Shown here: positions 5,848 through 12,700 of the stretch, piece by piece | Layout: each line of letters begins with the position of its first letter | Position numbering within the stretch: position 1 is the first letter of the stretch | DNA from: an uncultured Muriicola sp. | GTDB taxonomy: Bacteria; Bacteroidota; Bacteroidia; Flavobacteriales; Flavobacteriaceae | Assembly (NCBI RefSeq): GCF_947258935.1 | Contig: NZ_CAMYKH010000015.1 | Location: forward strand, 1 to 34,649 | Direction: 5' to 3' | Length of the DNA stretch: 34,649 nucleotides | Translations under genes and position numbers: made by a program | Notes under the pieces: generated by a model | Databases searched by the model: none | What the model was told of the DNA's origin: nothing | What the model saw: only the letters and a program-made list of their open reading frames with translations

Positions 5848-5926
5848 ATCTTTACAAAATCAAGATAAAACCTTGCTGATTCTGAGTTCCTGAACGAAAA
5901 CATTCCTTACAAAGTAATGTGCTACA

Positions 5927-6433
5927 CTATACTTTGACAAATGTTAGGCTTATACAGGCTTCTTCATCATTTTCATCTCCGTCAAAATCCCATTCGGCTA
6001 CCGGAGTTCCTCCAATCATTCTAAAGGTATTACCAGACAATGTATCGCCAAAATAGGTAGGATCATTTGGTTCATCATCATCAAATTGGATCGCGAAAAA
6101 TTCTCCGTCTTCAAAGTAAATTGTTCCTGAAGCGGTTTCCGGGTATGTTTGTCCGTTGAACATAACCATAATGTTTATTGTGAATCTACCATTGGCTTGA
6201 ACAACGAGAGTAGCAGAACCACCTTCTGCTATTACATCAAAGCTGCTGGGTTCGGGTACATCCCCCTGTCCACAAAAAGTTAAGGTATACTCAGTGGCTT
6301 CCCAGGTACCCTGTAACTCACTTAGACAATAATCTGGACCACAATCAGCTTTGGCCTCAGGGTCGTCTGAAGAACAGGACAGTAGTAAAATTGCGAATAA
6401 GGGAGCGAAGAAAAATTTGCTTAGTGTTTTCAT
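5927..6433 (-). CDS. Secreted lipoprotein, lipocalin-like, function unknown
   Basis: A 168-residue protein with a lipoprotein signal: a basic start (MKTLSK), a hydrophobic stretch and lipobox LLSC with the lipidated Cys20. The mature protein starts C-SSDDPE; acidic residues just after the Cys resemble the lipoprotein export signal that sends Flavobacteriaceae lipoproteins to the cell surface. The mature part has four Cys residues besides the lipidated one, a segment LQGTWEATEYTLTFC and several short beta-like stretches, like lipocalin-type domains of Bacteroidota lipoproteins, and is strongly acidic near the C-terminus (DDDEPNDP, DFDGDENDEEA). It is a single gene facing the plsC-like gene. 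Export and lipidation are well supported, the function is unknown. Confidence 0.78.
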   Translation of the reverse strand: MKTLSKFFFAPLFAILLLSCSSDDPEAKADCGPDYCLSELQGTWEATEYTLTFCGQGDVPEPSSFDVIAEGGSATLVVQANGRFTINIMVMFNGQTYPETASGTIYFEDGEFFAIQFDDDEPNDPTYFGDTLSGNTFRMIGGTPVAEWDFDGDENDEEACISLTFVKV

Positions 6434-6445
6434 GGCTTTTAGATT

Positions 6446-6603
6446 TTAGGTTATATATATTAACTATCATTGACATAGCATAACCTAAGTAACTAAAATC
6501 GAATACACAATGATATCAATCAGTTGATACCATTTATTTCATGGGGTATATTATAGGATGTTATTGAATCAAATATTCAAGTGTTTGTCGCATTACATGC
6601 GAC
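6446..6603. repeat. Cluster of four perfect small inverted repeats upstream of the lipoprotein gene
   Basis: The gap 6434-6684 holds no gene but has four perfect palindromic pairs: TTAGGTTAT/ATAACCTAA at 6446-6454 and 6480-6488; TATCAA/TTGATA at 6514-6519 and 6524-6529; TTGAAT/ATTCAA at 6564-6569 and 6575-6580; and GTCGCAT/ATGCGAC at 6587-6593 and 6597-6603 with a 3-nt loop. The first lies 12 nt upstream of the lipoprotein start, so it could be an operator or an RNA hairpin. Role not established. Confidence 0.45.
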
Positions 6604-6684
6604 TTTCAAATGACCAGTAAATTTAGCATCATGAGTTAGAATGTTTGATGTAAAATTACATTTTGGAATGATGTATATGAGAGG

Positions 6685-6775
6685 TTATTCCTGTATGGTA
6701 GAATACACGTTTTGTACATCATCTTCCTCTTTAATCTTTTCGAGAAGTTTTTCCACATCTTCTGCTTCTTCTGCA
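6685..6775 (-). pseudogene. Displaced 3' end of a yebC gene (remnant)
   Basis: On the minus strand 6775-6685 encodes AEEAEDVEKLLEKI, then KEEDDVQNVYSTIQE and a TAA. This is the C-terminal 29 residues of YebC, which at 12080-11990 reads AEEAEDVEKLLEKI, EEDDDVQNVYHTMKE and a TAG. By hand alignment 77 of 88 bases match, without gaps. Upstream of the shared block the frame continues a few codons (IIDFD) without resembling YebC and soon meets a stop, and there is no start codon, so this is a remnant. It has the same orientation as intact yebC, making a direct repeat pair around susCD. Confidence 0.8.
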
Positions 6776-6788
6776 TCAAAATCAATAA

Positions 6789-6822
6789 TAAAGCCCTTCA
6801 AATTTTTTTCTGAAGGGCTTTA
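6789..6822 (-). terminator. Intrinsic terminator after susD
   Basis: A perfect stem (AAAGCCCTTCA and TGAAGGGCTTT, plus one flanking A-T pair) encloses a 10-nt loop at 6801-6810. On the minus strand it is followed by ATTATT, and on the plus strand by AAAAATT. It sits 90 bp after the susD stop, so it most likely ends the susCD message. Confidence 0.75.
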
Positions 6823-6911
6823 AAAATTAAATCTAACAATTGTCTTACAGACAGCAGATCTAATTAAGATTATTGGGACCGAGAATTCTACAAACCTTAG
6901 TTGATAAAGTT

Positions 6912-8555
6912 TTAATTCTGATCACCAGGACCCAGATTTGGGTTTGCATCAATCTCCGCTTGCGGAATCTTAAATATCCAGGCATCATTGACAGAAGGCC
7001 TCTCAACCTGAAAGGCTTGTTGATAAAGAATCTCTGAAGCACCAGAGCCACCATCAGCTGCATGGTCAATACCTTCATCCCATCGAATTTTATCGGTATA
7101 TCCAAAGCCTTCACCCCATAACTCAAGTCCTCGTTGAAACTTAATTTGGTCCATCAAAGTCTGCTGTGTATTATAGATACTTACGTCATATGCGCTATCT
7201 CTTTCACTGCCAAGCGGATCAAGAGCGGCCTGAGCGCCAGGAATGTCATTTAACATTGCTCTTGCTTCAGCCTCAATTAAAAACATTTCTGAAGTACGCA
7301 TGTAAATAACGTCATCAGGGTCAATAGAACCGGGGTTCTTATTCTTCAACTTAAAGTGCATATAAGGGTGCAGATTGAACCTGCTTGTAAGACCGTATGT
7401 GGCATACAATTCATCGACCCGGGCATCAAACACTGCTTCGTCCGTGTAATTAGGATCGTTTCCAAAACCTCCCTCTCCATTGGCTGCCGAAGAGTTGGTA
7501 TTAGGAGCATCGACGATAAATGCTTTCTTCCTGTAATCTGTATCAGGAGTAGCATTGATCAACCTTCGGTCCGCAATCTTAGGGTTGTTCCTAATTTGGC
7601 TACCGTTAAAGGTGTTGCTGGCCAAATAAAAATAGGAACGGAAGAATGTGGTTTCAGCTGCAATTACGTTTGATCCCCAAATCACTTCAGAAAGACTGTT
7701 GGTATTAAATCCGGATAGCCAGTCTGCTTCGTTCATTATAGGAAAACCGTTTCGTGCCAGCACCGCATTATCTGCAGCAGTCTGCCAATCTCCTTTGGAT
7801 AAGGCCATTCTTGCCTTAAGGCCATAAGCAACATTTATATTTAATTGGGATTTGGTCTCAGGTCCACCACTTGGTCTGGAACTTCCATTCTGGAATAGTC
7901 CTATTGCCTCGTCGAGGTCAGCTTCAATCAAATCATATACTTCCTGTACGGAAGATCTTGGTGCACTGGTAAAAGGAGCCTCCGAAGAAAATAATATAGG
8001 GACACCTGGATCTGCAGAAGGATTTCCTATCAGATATCCTCTGGCATAATGCTGAACAAGGGACAGATAAGCGTAAGCCCTATATGTATGGGCCTGACCT
8101 AAAATGGTGTTCAGGGTTGGCGTTTCTGTCAAACTTCCATTTGTACCATTATTAATTAAGCCGTTTGCCCCGGCAATAATATTATAACGGTGGTACCATA
8201 AGATCTCATTCGTTAAGGAAAAAGGATCTGTATGTGAAAGCCATTGCATTTCAGTTCGCCATCCCAAATTGTTTGCACTGGCAGAGTGGATTAAACCTCC
8301 AGTTAAATTATCCCCAAGCGGTACCCAATAGTGGTTTCCTGCCCTTGCGGTATTTCCTCCAGGGAAAATTGTTTGGGACTGGGAGTACAAACCACGATGC
8401 AGCCCATTCAAGACCAGTTGCATGTTCTCTTCGTTTGCAAATGCGTCAGCCGCGGCTATCGCATCTGTTGGTGTCGTATCAAGGAAATCTTCCTCACATG
8501 AAGTTACTGTAATCGCCAGGATTGCCAATAACATTATTTTAATTCTACTTAACAT
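6912..8555 (-). CDS. susD: RagB/SusD family outer-membrane nutrient-binding lipoprotein
   Basis: A 547-residue lipoprotein with signal sequence and lipobox VTSC (Cys20), followed by EEDFLDTTPTDAI, the usual SusD opening after the lipid anchor. The segment TYRAYAYLSLVQHYARGYL (about 152-170) is the helical TPR-like part, and the C-terminal half contains RTSEMFLIEAEARA and QRGLELWGEGFGYTDKIRWD, signature segments of the SusD fold. SusD caps the SusC barrel on the cell surface and captures a ligand such as a glycan oligomer or peptide. It follows susC by 19 bp. No glycoside hydrolase, peptidase or anti-sigma gene lies nearby, so the ligand cannot be guessed. Confidence 0.94.
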   Translation of the reverse strand: MLSRIKIMLLAILAITVTSCEEDFLDTTPTDAIAAADAFANEENMQLVLNGLHRGLYSQSQTIFPGGNTARAGNHYWVPLGDNLTGGLIHSASANNLGWRTEMQWLSHTDPFSLTNEILWYHRYNIIAGANGLINNGTNGSLTETPTLNTILGQAHTYRAYAYLSLVQHYARGYLIGNPSADPGVPILFSSEAPFTSAPRSSVQEVYDLIEADLDEAIGLFQNGSSRPSGGPETKSQLNINVAYGLKARMALSKGDWQTAADNAVLARNGFPIMNEADWLSGFNTNSLSEVIWGSNVIAAETTFFRSYFYLASNTFNGSQIRNNPKIADRRLINATPDTDYRKKAFIVDAPNTNSSAANGEGGFGNDPNYTDEAVFDARVDELYATYGLTSRFNLHPYMHFKLKNKNPGSIDPDDVIYMRTSEMFLIEAEARAMLNDIPGAQAALDPLGSERDSAYDVSIYNTQQTLMDQIKFQRGLELWGEGFGYTDKIRWDEGIDHAADGGSGASEILYQQAFQVERPSVNDAWIFKIPQAEIDANPNLGPGDQN

Positions 8556-8574
8556 AACTATTATTTTTTCTTAG

Positions 8575-11500
8575 TTAAAATGATACGTTCAGTCCTAAAG
8601 AAATAATTCTCGCAGGATTAAAGTCGTTACCAGCAGGTGTTCCTGCTAAATTATATTGTGGATCTAATCCATCTCTCTTGCTCTTTAAGTATAAATTCTC
8701 CCCGGAGATGGCAACCCTTAAAGCCGAAAGGCCCAAGGCGTCTGTTACCTGGCTGTTAAAGTTATAGCCAAGATTGACGTTTTTCAAGGACCAGAAAGAG
8801 GCATCAGTCAAGAAGCGATCTGATTGTGTACGTACCAGGTTTGCATTTCCAGCTTCCAGCCTTGGAACAGTAGTGATGTCACCCGGCTGTCTCCAAGCAT
8901 TTAGGATGTCTGGATGGTAAGACCTTCCAAATTCACCACTGTGCATCATTGCCGAATATCCATTATCCAGAAATGAACCACCAATACCAAAAGTAACCAA
9001 GAAATCCAGGGTGAAACCTTTATAGCTCAGGCTGTTGGCAACTGATCCTAAGAGATCTGGTATAGTAGTATCACCTGTATAAGCTCTTTCGGTGGCCTGC
9101 CAGTCGTTTGTGGTTTCTATATCACCATTAGCATCCAGTACAGGAACGCTTTCCCCGTCTTCATCCAGTTCATAAACAAAGAATAACTGGTCTCCATTAT
9201 CCGGGTCAACACCGGCTGTACGTAGCAGGAAGAAATCAAATCTTGAACGCCCTTCTGCCCATCGTTTAGATCCGTTGATAAAAGGATCAGGCAAGCTGGT
9301 GATCTCATTTTGAAAGGTTGACCCTTGTAGGGTAACATTCCAACGAATATCTTCCGTGTTAACAAGGTTTGTTGTCAAGGCTACTTCCCAACCGGAGTTG
9401 TACATATCCCCGATATTAGTTGGTACGGTATTCAAACCATTACTAATTGGAATCGGCAAATTATACAACAGGTCAGAAGAATTCCGCTTGTAGTATTCTA
9501 CAGAACCATCCAGGAAATTGTTAAACAAAGTAAATTCCAGGGCTACATCAAAATTCTCAATAGTTTCCCATTGCAGCGCTGAATTCCCCAGATCGGTGTT
9601 TATTATAGCAGGACTGGCAGCATTGGAAGTAATGGAGAATCTGGGTTGTGCCAAGAAGAAGTCTAGTAAGTCATCATTACCTACTTCCCCGTAAGATCCT
9701 CTGATTTTCAATGCATCTATAAAGCCAACATTTTCCATAAAGTTCTCCTGGTCAATTCTCCAGGAAGCACCTACGGAGTAAAATGTACCCCATCGTGATT
9801 CGCTGCTAAATACAGACGAACCGTCTCTACGAACCGAAGCACTTAAATAGTACTTATTATCGAAATTGTAGTTGGTTCTCAGGAAATACCCTTCGATTGC
9901 TTTTCTTGTTGTATTTCCACCTAATCTTACGATATTGGAGAAGTTGTCGTTCACAAATATTCCACTAGCCGTTTGCACGGTTTTTAAACCATTAATACTG
10001 TTAAAGGTTCTGTCAAAACTTTCATGTCCGGCGGTTATATCTATATTGTGATTGCCAAAGCTATTGTTGTAGGTCAGGATCTGATTAAAGTTTTCTACCT
10101 GCCTTCTGAAACGATCGTCACTGAACCTTCCGTCTGGCTGGGCATCTCCTATAATCGCATTTTCATATTCTTGCTCCAGACCCTCATTGATATCTCTACC
10201 ATAATTTACCCTGAGTTTAAGGCCTTCTAAAATCTCCCATTCTCCGAACATCCTGAAACCATAGGTGTTATCCCTGTCCCTTTCATCGTTTAGGAGCAGC
10301 TCCTGGAGTGCGTGACGTCCCTGGCTAACAGGCCTTGAACCAATATTATATTCAGAAAATCCTTCACCATTATCGAAAAGCTGATTCCCTAGAGGATCCA
10401 ATACAATGTTACCCTGTAAATCGTTAACATATACTGGGTATACTGAACCTATATTCTTGGCAAAACCAAAAGGGTTAACAATACTACCTGTTCCTGCAGA
10501 ACTTGGTCCTGCTGCATTGGAAATAGTAACATTAGTACTGCCGCCAATTGTGATACGATCTGAAACATCAAATTCAGCGTTTACACGCGTTGTTAGTCGA
10601 TCGAATTCTGAGGTAACTACATATCCTTCTTCATCCAGATATGAGGCAGAGAAAAATACTTTATGATTTTCGCCTCCACCGGAAACATTTACATTATAAT
10701 TCTGTCGTACACCAGTTTTTGTGAGTACGTCATACCAATTCAGACTTTTATAAATAACCTGCGCATTGGGATTAATTTGGCCATTTAATCCAACAATCTG
10801 GTCATTGGGGACATCAAATGGGTTATACCCCAGACTCTGGTAGATATTCGCCGAAGCAAAAGCGGGATCTCCACCACCGGCGCTTGAATTTCTCAAGGCT
10901 TCCCACATAGTTTCGTAGTACTGTGCGGGGCTTAACTCATCATAAAATGGGATGGCCTGACTTGTCAGCCCATACTGCATTGATGCGTTTACCTGAATAG
11001 CTCCTCGGGTACCACTCTTGGTGGTTATTATAACAACCCCGTTAGCAGCCCTGGAACCATATAAGGACGTAGAAGCTGCATCTTTAAGAATGGTAAAAGA
11101 GGCAATGTCTTCCTGGTTAATAGTGTTTAATGCACCCTCGTACTGAACACCGTCAACAATGAACAAAGGATCAGAATCACCATTAAGTGTACCTACACCT
11201 CTTATTACAATACCTGGTGAGGACCCTGGTTGCCCAGAAGGAGATGTAAACTGAATACCTGTTGCCCTACCTTCTATCGCTGCAATAGGTGAAGTAACAC
11301 TCCTGATAGCCAGGTCTTCGGCACCCACCACAGCCGCAGAACCTGTAAAGGCTTCTTTGGTTGAAGTACCATAGGCCGTTACGATGACCTCATCAAGCGC
11401 TTGTGCGTCTTCTTCCATCTGCAAATTGATAGTATTTGACGCACCAACGGTTCTTTGCGTAGTTTGTTGGCCTATATAGCTAAACCTTAGCTTCTGTCCA

Positions 11501-11700
11501 ACAGCGGCAATAATGCTGTAATTACCATCAAAATCAGATTGTGTGCCGGTTGATGTACCCACAATTAAAATGGATACACCGGGTAACGGAACTCCTGATT
11601 GGTCCGTAACAGTACCGGTGATCGTTTTCTCTTGGGAAAATCCAAGTTGCGAAATTAGCATGAAAAATGATGCTAAAATCCAGAGGTTTTTAGATGTCAT
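8575..11700 (-). CDS. susC: SusC/RagA family TonB-linked outer-membrane transporter
   Basis: A 1041-residue TonB-dependent receptor. Residues 1-22 are a signal peptide ending GFS before QEKTITG. Residues about 25-95 form the carboxypeptidase regulatory-like beta domain (TGTVTDQSGVPLPGVSILIV). DEVIVTAYG (103-111) marks the SusC start of the plug domain, which includes GSRAANGVVIITTKSG near 215-230, and the rest is a 22-strand barrel ending in a typical C-terminal segment IISLGLNVSF. It imports the ligand captured by SusD with energy from TonB/ExbBD. There is no extra N-terminal signalling (STN) domain, which fits the lack of a linked anti-sigma factor. The 289-bp gap upstream (11701-11989) must carry its promoter, but I found no clean TAnnTTTG match there. 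Confidence 0.95.
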   Translation of the reverse strand: MTSKNLWILASFFMLISQLGFSQEKTITGTVTDQSGVPLPGVSILIVGTSTGTQSDFDGNYSIIAAVGQKLRFSYIGQQTTQRTVGASNTINLQMEEDAQALDEVIVTAYGTSTKEAFTGSAAVVGAEDLAIRSVTSPIAAIEGRATGIQFTSPSGQPGSSPGIVIRGVGTLNGDSDPLFIVDGVQYEGALNTINQEDIASFTILKDAASTSLYGSRAANGVVIITTKSGTRGAIQVNASMQYGLTSQAIPFYDELSPAQYYETMWEALRNSSAGGGDPAFASANIYQSLGYNPFDVPNDQIVGLNGQINPNAQVIYKSLNWYDVLTKTGVRQNYNVNVSGGGENHKVFFSASYLDEEGYVVTSEFDRLTTRVNAEFDVSDRITIGGSTNVTISNAAGPSSAGTGSIVNPFGFAKNIGSVYPVYVNDLQGNIVLDPLGNQLFDNGEGFSEYNIGSRPVSQGRHALQELLLNDERDRDNTYGFRMFGEWEILEGLKLRVNYGRDINEGLEQEYENAIIGDAQPDGRFSDDRFRRQVENFNQILTYNNSFGNHNIDITAGHESFDRTFNSINGLKTVQTASGIFVNDNFSNIVRLGGNTTRKAIEGYFLRTNYNFDNKYYLSASVRRDGSSVFSSESRWGTFYSVGASWRIDQENFMENVGFIDALKIRGSYGEVGNDDLLDFFLAQPRFSITSNAASPAIINTDLGNSALQWETIENFDVALEFTLFNNFLDGSVEYYKRNSSDLLYNLPIPISNGLNTVPTNIGDMYNSGWEVALTTNLVNTEDIRWNVTLQGSTFQNEITSLPDPFINGSKRWAEGRSRFDFFLLRTAGVDPDNGDQLFFVYELDEDGESVPVLDANGDIETTNDWQATERAYTGDTTIPDLLGSVANSLSYKGFTLDFLVTFGIGGSFLDNGYSAMMHSGEFGRSYHPDILNAWRQPGDITTVPRLEAGNANLVRTQSDRFLTDASFWSLKNVNLGYNFNSQVTDALGLSALRVAISGENLYLKSKRDGLDPQYNLAGTPAGNDFNPARIISLGLNVSF

Positions 11701-11989
11701 TTAGTAGTTTTTTGAATTAGTTGCTTCAAGTAAAGATTTTTATTGTTTTAATCCAATATAAATACCATAATTAACATTATATATTCAATGAATTAGTCAA
11801 TTATACTTCTTATCCGTAAAAAGCAGCCTATCTAGTAGTATTTGGAATCTTCCAGACCAAACAAATAGTTTATATATAACTATTATCAGGCAAGAAAGAA
11901 ATCAAGTGTGTGGTTTTTTAATGCTAATTAGTGCAAAAAATAACCATGGTAAAAACAATTGAATTCTTGATTATTATGGTTTGGAGAAA

Positions 11990-12700
11990 CTATTCCTTCA
12001 TGGTATGATATACGTTTTGTACATCGTCATCCTCTTCGATCTTTTCGAGAAGTTTTTCCACATCTTCGGCTTCTTCCGCACTTAGCTCCTTAGTGACCTG
12101 TGGAATGCGCTCGAACCCGGATGATAAAATCTCAATTTCTCTTGATTCCAATTCTTTTTGAATAGCTCCAAAACTTTCAAAAGGAGCATAAATCATGATT
12201 CCATCTTCGTCCTCAAATACCTCCTCAGCACCAAAATCAATGAAGTCTAATTCTAACTCCTCGGGATCTATACCTTCGGTTGGAATTCGGAAATTACAGG
12301 TATGATCGAACATAAATTCTACTGAGCCGGAAGTACCGAGGCTCCCATTACACTTATTGAAGTAACTCCTAATATTGGCTACAGTACGCGTATTATTGTC
12401 TGTAGCTGTTTCTATAAGGATCGCAATACCATGAGGTGCATAACCTTCAAACAACACTTCTTTATAATCACCCAGGGATTTGTCTGAAGCCCTTTTAATA
12501 GCCCGCTCAACATTGTCCTTGGGCATATTCACGGATTTGGCATTCTGGATGACAGCTCGTAAACGAGAATTAGCATCAGGATCGGGGCCTCCTTCCTTAA
12601 CTGCCATCACAATATCCTTTCCGATTCGTGTAAAGGCCTTGGACATGGCAGACCAACGCTTCATTTTTCGCGCTTTCCGAAATTCAAATGCTCTTCCCAT
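11990..12700 (-). CDS. yebC: YebC/PmpR family protein (TACO1-like)
   Basis: A 236-residue YebC protein. It opens MGRAFEFRKARKMKRWSAMS, the Bacteroidota version of the family start, then shows GGPDPDANSRLRAVIQNAKS (about 38-57), MPKDNVERAIKRA, the central EGYAPHGIAILIETATDNNTRT and the acidic C-terminal domain ending AEEAEDVEKLLEKI and DDDVQNVYHTMKE. Members have been described as DNA-binding regulators (PmpR), as relievers of ribosome stalling at proline-rich stretches, and as the mitochondrial translation factor TACO1. It has its own promoter (12727-12756). A second, decayed copy of its last 29 codons lies on the far side of susCD. Length and both domains are complete. Confidence 0.93.
   Translation of the reverse strand: MGRAFEFRKARKMKRWSAMSKAFTRIGKDIVMAVKEGGPDPDANSRLRAVIQNAKSVNMPKDNVERAIKRASDKSLGDYKEVLFEGYAPHGIAILIETATDNNTRTVANIRSYFNKCNGSLGTSGSVEFMFDHTCNFRIPTEGIDPEELELDFIDFGAEEVFEDEDGIMIYAPFESFGAIQKELESREIEILSSGFERIPQVTKELSAEEAEDVEKLLEKIEEDDDVQNVYHTMKE

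Follow-up and report, generated by a model that had tools for sequence, protein, structure and literature searches.

SusCD pairs determine which large nutrients can be taken up by Bacteroidota. How these pairs move between genomes without a recombinase is seldom visible. The closest products described come from an experimental system, a plasmid and lacZ in E. coli: the available part of that report (PMC3240628) describes 14 sequenced clones in which part of lacZ was duplicated over 109-950 bp and ascribes the duplications to single crossovers of recircularised DNA. In the same part, the one-sided illegitimate route usually led to a deletion, duplications arose only by single crossover, and three of four one-sided clones were joined without homology.

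We analyzed a window of 34,649 nucleotides (contig NZ_CAMYKH010000015.1, positions 1 to 34,649) from an uncultured Muriicola sp. of the Flavobacteriaceae, in which a susCD pair lies between two copies of the 3' end of yebC. The cargo is ordinary and of the same kind as the SusCD-type uptake pairs of Bacteroidota in general; its bracketing is unusual. Like the products in the available part of PMC3240628, the window has a partial duplication of the homologous gene flanking the insert, a repeat of arbitrary length and no dedicated recombinase. Unlike them, it holds a natural operon behind yebC, and like scars are found behind other genes within one susCD group. Among the literature matches listed, which cover the field in part, none described susCD bracketed by gene ends or yebC as an attachment site; the available part of PMC9453066 mentions yebC only as a neighbour of the pneumolysin gene.

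Layout of the window and the displaced yebC end

The features of the locus, ordered from yebC toward the lipoprotein-like ORF, are as follows.

11990-12700, minus strand: yebC, intact, 236 aa (Pfam TACO1/YebC)
11991-12080, minus strand: near copy of the direct repeat, the 3'-terminal part of yebC (79/90 against 6686-6775)
11701-11989, no strand: yebC-susC spacer, non-homologous to the native yebC-lipoprotein spacer (shuffle test against G007)
8575-11700, minus strand: susC, TonB-dependent receptor of SusC type, 1041 aa (Pfam)
6912-8555, minus strand: susD, 547 aa (Pfam)
6790-6822, minus strand: terminator-like hairpin 3' of susD (read from the sequence)
6773-6775, minus strand: TGC where the susCD segment meets the yebC remnant (sequence comparison)
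6686-6775, minus strand: displaced native yebC 3' end, decaying (repeat, flank and private changes)
6434-6685, no strand: native yebC-lipoprotein spacer (shuffle test against G007)
5927-6433, minus strand: lipoprotein-like ORF, directly 3' of yebC in G007

The first-pass annotation had reported an 88-bp direct repeat with only susC, susD and a terminator between its copies, and both points held. Alignment of the yebC 3' end at 11993-12080 with 6688-6775 gave 77 of 88 equal bases, ungapped and in the same orientation, and widening the repeat to 6686-6775 gave 79 identical bases of 90, again ungapped; the intervening content was accounted for by Pfam matches to susC and susD and by the hairpin, of which similar forms also lie 3' of susD in G006 and G005. 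The two copies are spaced 5,305 bp apart, the far one downstream of yebC, where it keeps the yebC frame on the minus strand and ends in a stop (..AEEAEDVEKLLEKIKEEDDVQNVYSTIQE*). A possible weak similarity extends about 18 bases beyond the stop (108 nt at 82% in one alignment). When the genome's own assembly (G000, a 2.9-Mb draft of 155 contigs, 94% complete) was searched with 221 bases around the yebC end at E<=0.001, only these two places were found, the second at E 6e-26. The yebC protein is 99% identical in amino acids to that of G004 and 98% to that of G007. The ORF at 5927-6433 has no Pfam match, and 'lipoprotein' is the earlier reader's name for it.

The spacer behind the far copy matched the yebC-lipoprotein spacer of G007 at 150 of 243 positions (30 shuffles: mean 100, maximum 116), and the yebC-susC spacer matched the same G007 spacer at 115 of 229 (30 shuffles: mean 105, maximum 120). 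Since native sequence lies behind the far copy and non-native sequence behind the near one, the far copy is by position the native yebC end, displaced to the far side as had been proposed, which puts the limits of the imported segment at about the near stop codon and at 6775/6776. The last 90 bases of the near yebC also look native (84/90 to G007, 81/90 to G004), so a donor tract is not demonstrated there. A yebC paralogue decayed in place, which the first-pass annotation had named as another possible source of the remnant, is contradicted by the native flank, spacer and lipoprotein gene, that follows the remnant. In the family, 18 of the 19 genomes with two YebC C-terminus matches (own genome left out) have a second full-length yebC; the nineteenth is G219.

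Over the last 90 bases, the remnant matched G007 at 79 positions, the near copy at 78, G004 at 74, and G008 and G002 at 70 each (counted without G001 and G003). It differs from the near copy at 12 positions (stop included): eight changes are private to the remnant and one to the near copy, and at the other three, the remnant has states common to G007 or G004. Five of the eight private changes alter the protein, and E222K, D224E, H232S and M234I fall on residues kept by 79, 79, 79 and 78, respectively, of 80 named loci. The far copy is a decaying scrap in which near-invariant YebC residues have been lost. Most of the 12% divergence therefore arose by decay once the event had happened, and it is no sign that the copies differed initially.

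The interval from yebC to the acyltransferase gene, 5848-11989 in the window, is between 4 bp and 8 kb long in the 40 of 80 named loci where both genes could be located, and between 36 bp and 6.1 kb in seven genomes of the genus. An interval so different in length marks a variable spot.

The susCD site in relatives of the genus

The genus search covered nine genomes, and yebC was found in the genome's own assembly and in six others. All six (G001, G002, G003, G004, G007, and G008) have the empty site that the first-pass annotation had proposed to look for, yebC being followed by the downstream genes without susCD; the opposite outcome, in which all relatives carry yebC-susCD without a remnant, was not observed. 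In G005 and G006, yebC was not found at E<=1e-20. Both have susD in front of the same genes, on contigs that break within susCD, and their susD-lipoprotein spacers contained no yebC match; carriers of susCD without the window's scar therefore exist. The G006 spacer behind the terminator had 121 matches to the native G004 spacer (30 shuffles: mean 75, maximum 91), which places the G006 susCD in the spacer behind the position of yebC. A diverged susCD is present in G004 on a different contig.

Third-codon-position identity between the window and G005/G006 was 72%/68% for susD and 67% for susC (G005 only), compared with 37-50% for six neighbouring genes (starts at 853, 2066, 2658, 3377, 4083, and 5311; lipoprotein gene left out). 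Between G005 and G006 themselves, it was 50-58% for the six genes and 70% for susD. The excess of susCD over its neighbours shows horizontal acquisition: the pair moved from one lineage to another after their split. The plasmid search for susD returned one record at 32% identity, which was uninformative.

The yebC 3' end as an integrase attachment site

We searched 397 family genomes with a 27-base pattern over the codons DVQNVYHTM, allowing at most two mismatches, a limit that the window remnant exceeds and by which it is missed. At least two matches were obtained in 17 genomes, eight of which have a second full-length yebC; the remaining nine are G180, G354, G318, G222, G265, G295, G385, G388, and G219. 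Seven of these nine carry a tyrosine integrase domain within about 0.8 kb behind yebC (G180, G354, G318, G222, G265, G295, and G388, corresponding to loci L194, L196, L198, L200, L202, L204, and L206), the integrase match starting 125-151 bp behind the pattern. The integrases are 59-96% identical to each other and 396 aa long, except for 469 aa in G318. Where the two copies stand on one contig, they are 170.6 kb (G180), 84.9 kb (G354), 50.2 kb (G318), 156.0 kb (G222), 70.9 kb (G265), 10.2 kb (G295), and 9.8 kb (G385) apart; in G388, the two core copies are on separate contigs. In eight genomes, the yebC-like part of the displaced copy begins with a near-symmetric core (GATACAC-AGAAC-GTGTATC in G180) and ends at the stop, 26-36 of 37 bases matching, and upstream of the core stands an arm of the element (CGAACWAAT in seven of eight, CGAACAAGC in G385). 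A search with one integrase at E<=1e-50 identified 11 of the 397 genomes, and in eight of these the gene lies directly behind yebC (G180, G265, G143, G354, G222, G388, G295, and G318); in G021 broken pieces of it stand a short way behind yebC, in G358 it is about 38 kb from yebC, and in G088 it could not be placed. The yebC 3' end is a genuine attachment site in the Flavobacteriaceae, occupied by elements of 10-171 kb, and the earlier proposal of yebC as an integration site is thus corroborated elsewhere in the family by integrases and displaced cores. As a by-product, the attachment-site rule gives a simple way to locate the ends of yebC-linked integrase elements.

Several further observations concern these elements. 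The element of G318 looks prophage-like, with a phage minor-tail protein. In G021, a yebC-type integrase is broken into two separate frames close behind yebC (G021:C23:2437-3377), and the 27-base pattern found no second core copy in that whole genome. Among the 80 named loci, the integrase family also occurs behind yebC in Pseudozobellia sp. WGM2 (L077) and Flagellimonas hadalis (L085).

The window shares with these elements the gene end, the orientation, and the combination of a restored gene with a displaced native end. Unlike the window, the elements have a tyrosine integrase directly behind yebC, the near-symmetric core and the arm, and their displaced copies share about 37 bp with yebC, whereas the window repeat begins about 55 bp farther upstream. 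The far copy of the window thus does not start at the core and is not preceded by a CGAAC-motif arm; the bases upstream of the core are yebC-like. No relative of the yebC-linked integrases was present in the window (best E 0.87), consistent with the earlier report of no integrase there, and none was found in its own draft genome, G001 or G002 at E<=1e-50. An integrase origin of the window's repeat, as the relic of an integrating element that had been suggested, is not supported.

Two long repeats at other yebC loci are closer in form to the window than the integrase elements are. In G219 (L179, G219:C33, about 9936-10051), a 116-bp repeat of the yebC end and terminator, 96% identical, lies 2.9 kb downstream and encloses one gene, whose 810-aa product has CBM96, MopE, and secretion-tail domains. 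In G385 (L205), three yebC ends follow one another: the gene itself, an attachment-type copy 9.8 kb on, and, 1.1 kb behind that copy, a frameshifted remnant of 204 bp at 87%. The yebC sequence of G385 is common to Flavobacteriaceae bacterium NBU2977 (L079). Among the flanks of 86 yebC loci (80 named, 6 of the genus), L079 alone had a second yebC end beyond matches of 15-31 bases.

Gene-end scars around susCD and their origin

We scanned 28 susCD loci, the window and sets of 11 and 16 others with G004 among them, looking in each for a further copy, 40 bp or longer, of the final 120 bp of a gene; three loci are cut by contig ends (L227, L230, and L239), and no susC was recognised in L233. Gene-end copies bracket orthologous susC-susD pairs in four of the 28 (the yebC window, L183, L229, and L232), or in three of 27 when the window, which was picked for its repeat, is left out. 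L183, from the single-contig genome G263, has a polA end (Pfam) duplicated over 131 bp at 80%; both copies are readable, and both encode an intact protein end with mostly silent differences toward its terminus, as expected if one end was imported. In G064, which has polA-susCD in the same surroundings with no copy detected, polA matches the near copy of L183 at 87 of 120 positions and the far copy at 78 of 120, which weakly indicates donor likeness of the near copy. The scar of L229 comprises 102 bp of the end of a DUF2911/TPR gene at 96%, and that of L232 comprises 365 bp of the end of an unnamed gene at 90%, with frame breaks in the copy.

The same scan of 80 control loci (1.6 Mb) found no such case, the sole matches being one pair of paralogues. 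In control locus L079, a 38-bp yebC-end copy fell below the 40-bp limit, and its genome has a 204-bp remnant just outside the locus. The controls were drawn from the surroundings of yebC, cut 10 kb away from the gene, and do not represent acquired cassettes; they indicate that gene-end duplications are rare and provide no contrast between susCD and other transferred cassettes. Further candidates among the susCD loci were rejected: the repeats in L185, L186, L188, L190, L225, and L234 are stretches upstream of neighbouring susC genes, those in L231 (21 bp) and L236 (27 bp) are too short, and L238 was left out for a weak protein match (E 0.009).

In the window, foreign DNA is flanked by a duplicated part of a gene, the length of which is arbitrary. 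With a probability of roughly 0.6, we attribute this duplication to a transfer in which homology to yebC anchored the incoming susCD DNA, the far end being closed illegitimately or by a single crossover. The susC-susD-terminator segment would have entered an ancestor of this genome by horizontal transfer, on incoming DNA in which susCD followed a yebC end that recombined by homology with the resident yebC. The other end would have been joined illegitimately, either one-sidedly or, via circularisation, as a single crossover, at a point within yebC, so that roughly the final 88-90 bp of the gene would have been duplicated. yebC would thereby have been kept intact next to susC, with the native end, its spacer and the lipoprotein gene left beyond susD, the end decaying there.

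The data show the repeat, the native sequence behind the far copy, the foreign origin of susCD, the empty sites, the decay of the remnant and the recurrence of such scars; the steps that we infer are the homologous anchoring in yebC and the illegitimate closure. In the available part of PMC3240628, duplications came only from single crossovers, which favours the single-crossover form for the scar. At the illegitimate joint, TGC is common to yebC and the G006 sequence behind its terminator; as three bases seen in G006 only, this match fits illegitimate joining weakly and is suggestive only. The first-pass annotation had listed recombination with a genome carrying yebC-susCD among its options, and this one fits best, although no such donor was seen assembled, given that yebC is not assembled beside susCD in G005 or G006. 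Recombination anchored in the upstream gene is also the simplest common account of the other gene-end scars. Gene-end scars behind different genes in one susCD group would then be a readable mark of transfers.

That the segment is instead the relic of a site-specific element in the yebC 3' end, which restored the gene end and lost its integrase and other genes so that susCD was left, is possible but rather unlikely. yebC does serve as an attachment site, with integrases behind it and a second core 10-171 kb downstream; some integrases may use an identity block as long as 88 bp; and segments lacking an integrase exist, since the 9.8-kb stretch of G385 from the yebC end to the attachment-type copy contained no integrase match. 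Yet the window repeat continues for about 55 bp beyond the core, into the part that in the elements is occupied by the arm; no integrase of this family turned up in the own draft genome, G001 or G002 at E<=1e-50; and G006 has susCD here without a yebC piece on the lipoprotein side. Scars behind polA and two other genes would, moreover, not be explained by a yebC-specific integrase. Against the preferred reading, a lost integrase of another kind with an 88-bp identity block would give the same picture. Replicative template switching, in which repair synthesis would leave yebC past the stop, copy susCD and re-enter yebC about 88 bp before the stop, is unlikely: it has no independent distinguishing mark, and the polA ends of L183 look like different alleles, which copying within the host would not give, although the probable near-identity of the two yebC copies at the event, with 8 of 12 differences private to the remnant, and the short TGC match at the re-entry point would agree with it.

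The third codon positions of the lipoprotein gene are closer to G007 (63%) than to G005 (43%) or G006 (35%), as in the surrounding genes, and susCD resembles G005/G006 more strongly than its six neighbours do. Both points, together with the lack of susCD behind yebC in G007 and G004, make it very unlikely that susCD is old here and that the remnant was imported with the yebC end, spacer and lipoprotein gene of an empty-site relative, even though the final gene order would be the same and the lipoprotein itself is about equally close to G007 (79%) and G005 (78%) in amino acids. Barely credible is an assembly chimera of two strains. The draft is fragmented, and susCD is where contigs break in G004, G005, and G006, but the joint shares only TGC, the remnant has decayed, and the same architecture occurs in the single-contig genome G263.

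Beyond recombination anchored in the upstream gene, the susCD group might be a recombinase-free cassette that uses a gene end as a portable attachment site, an idea that we regard as doubtful. If it were true, recombination between the bracketing gene ends would release a circle composed of susCD and a gene end, and one crossover between this circle and the same gene end in a different genome would integrate it there, the gene being restored both ways.

One more repeat was kept apart from the four scars as it is an internal gene piece rather than a gene end. In L226 (G032; 9646-9770 in susCD orientation), a 125-bp internal piece of the upstream 508-aa gene recurs behind susD at 93.6%, possibly a fifth scar of another form.
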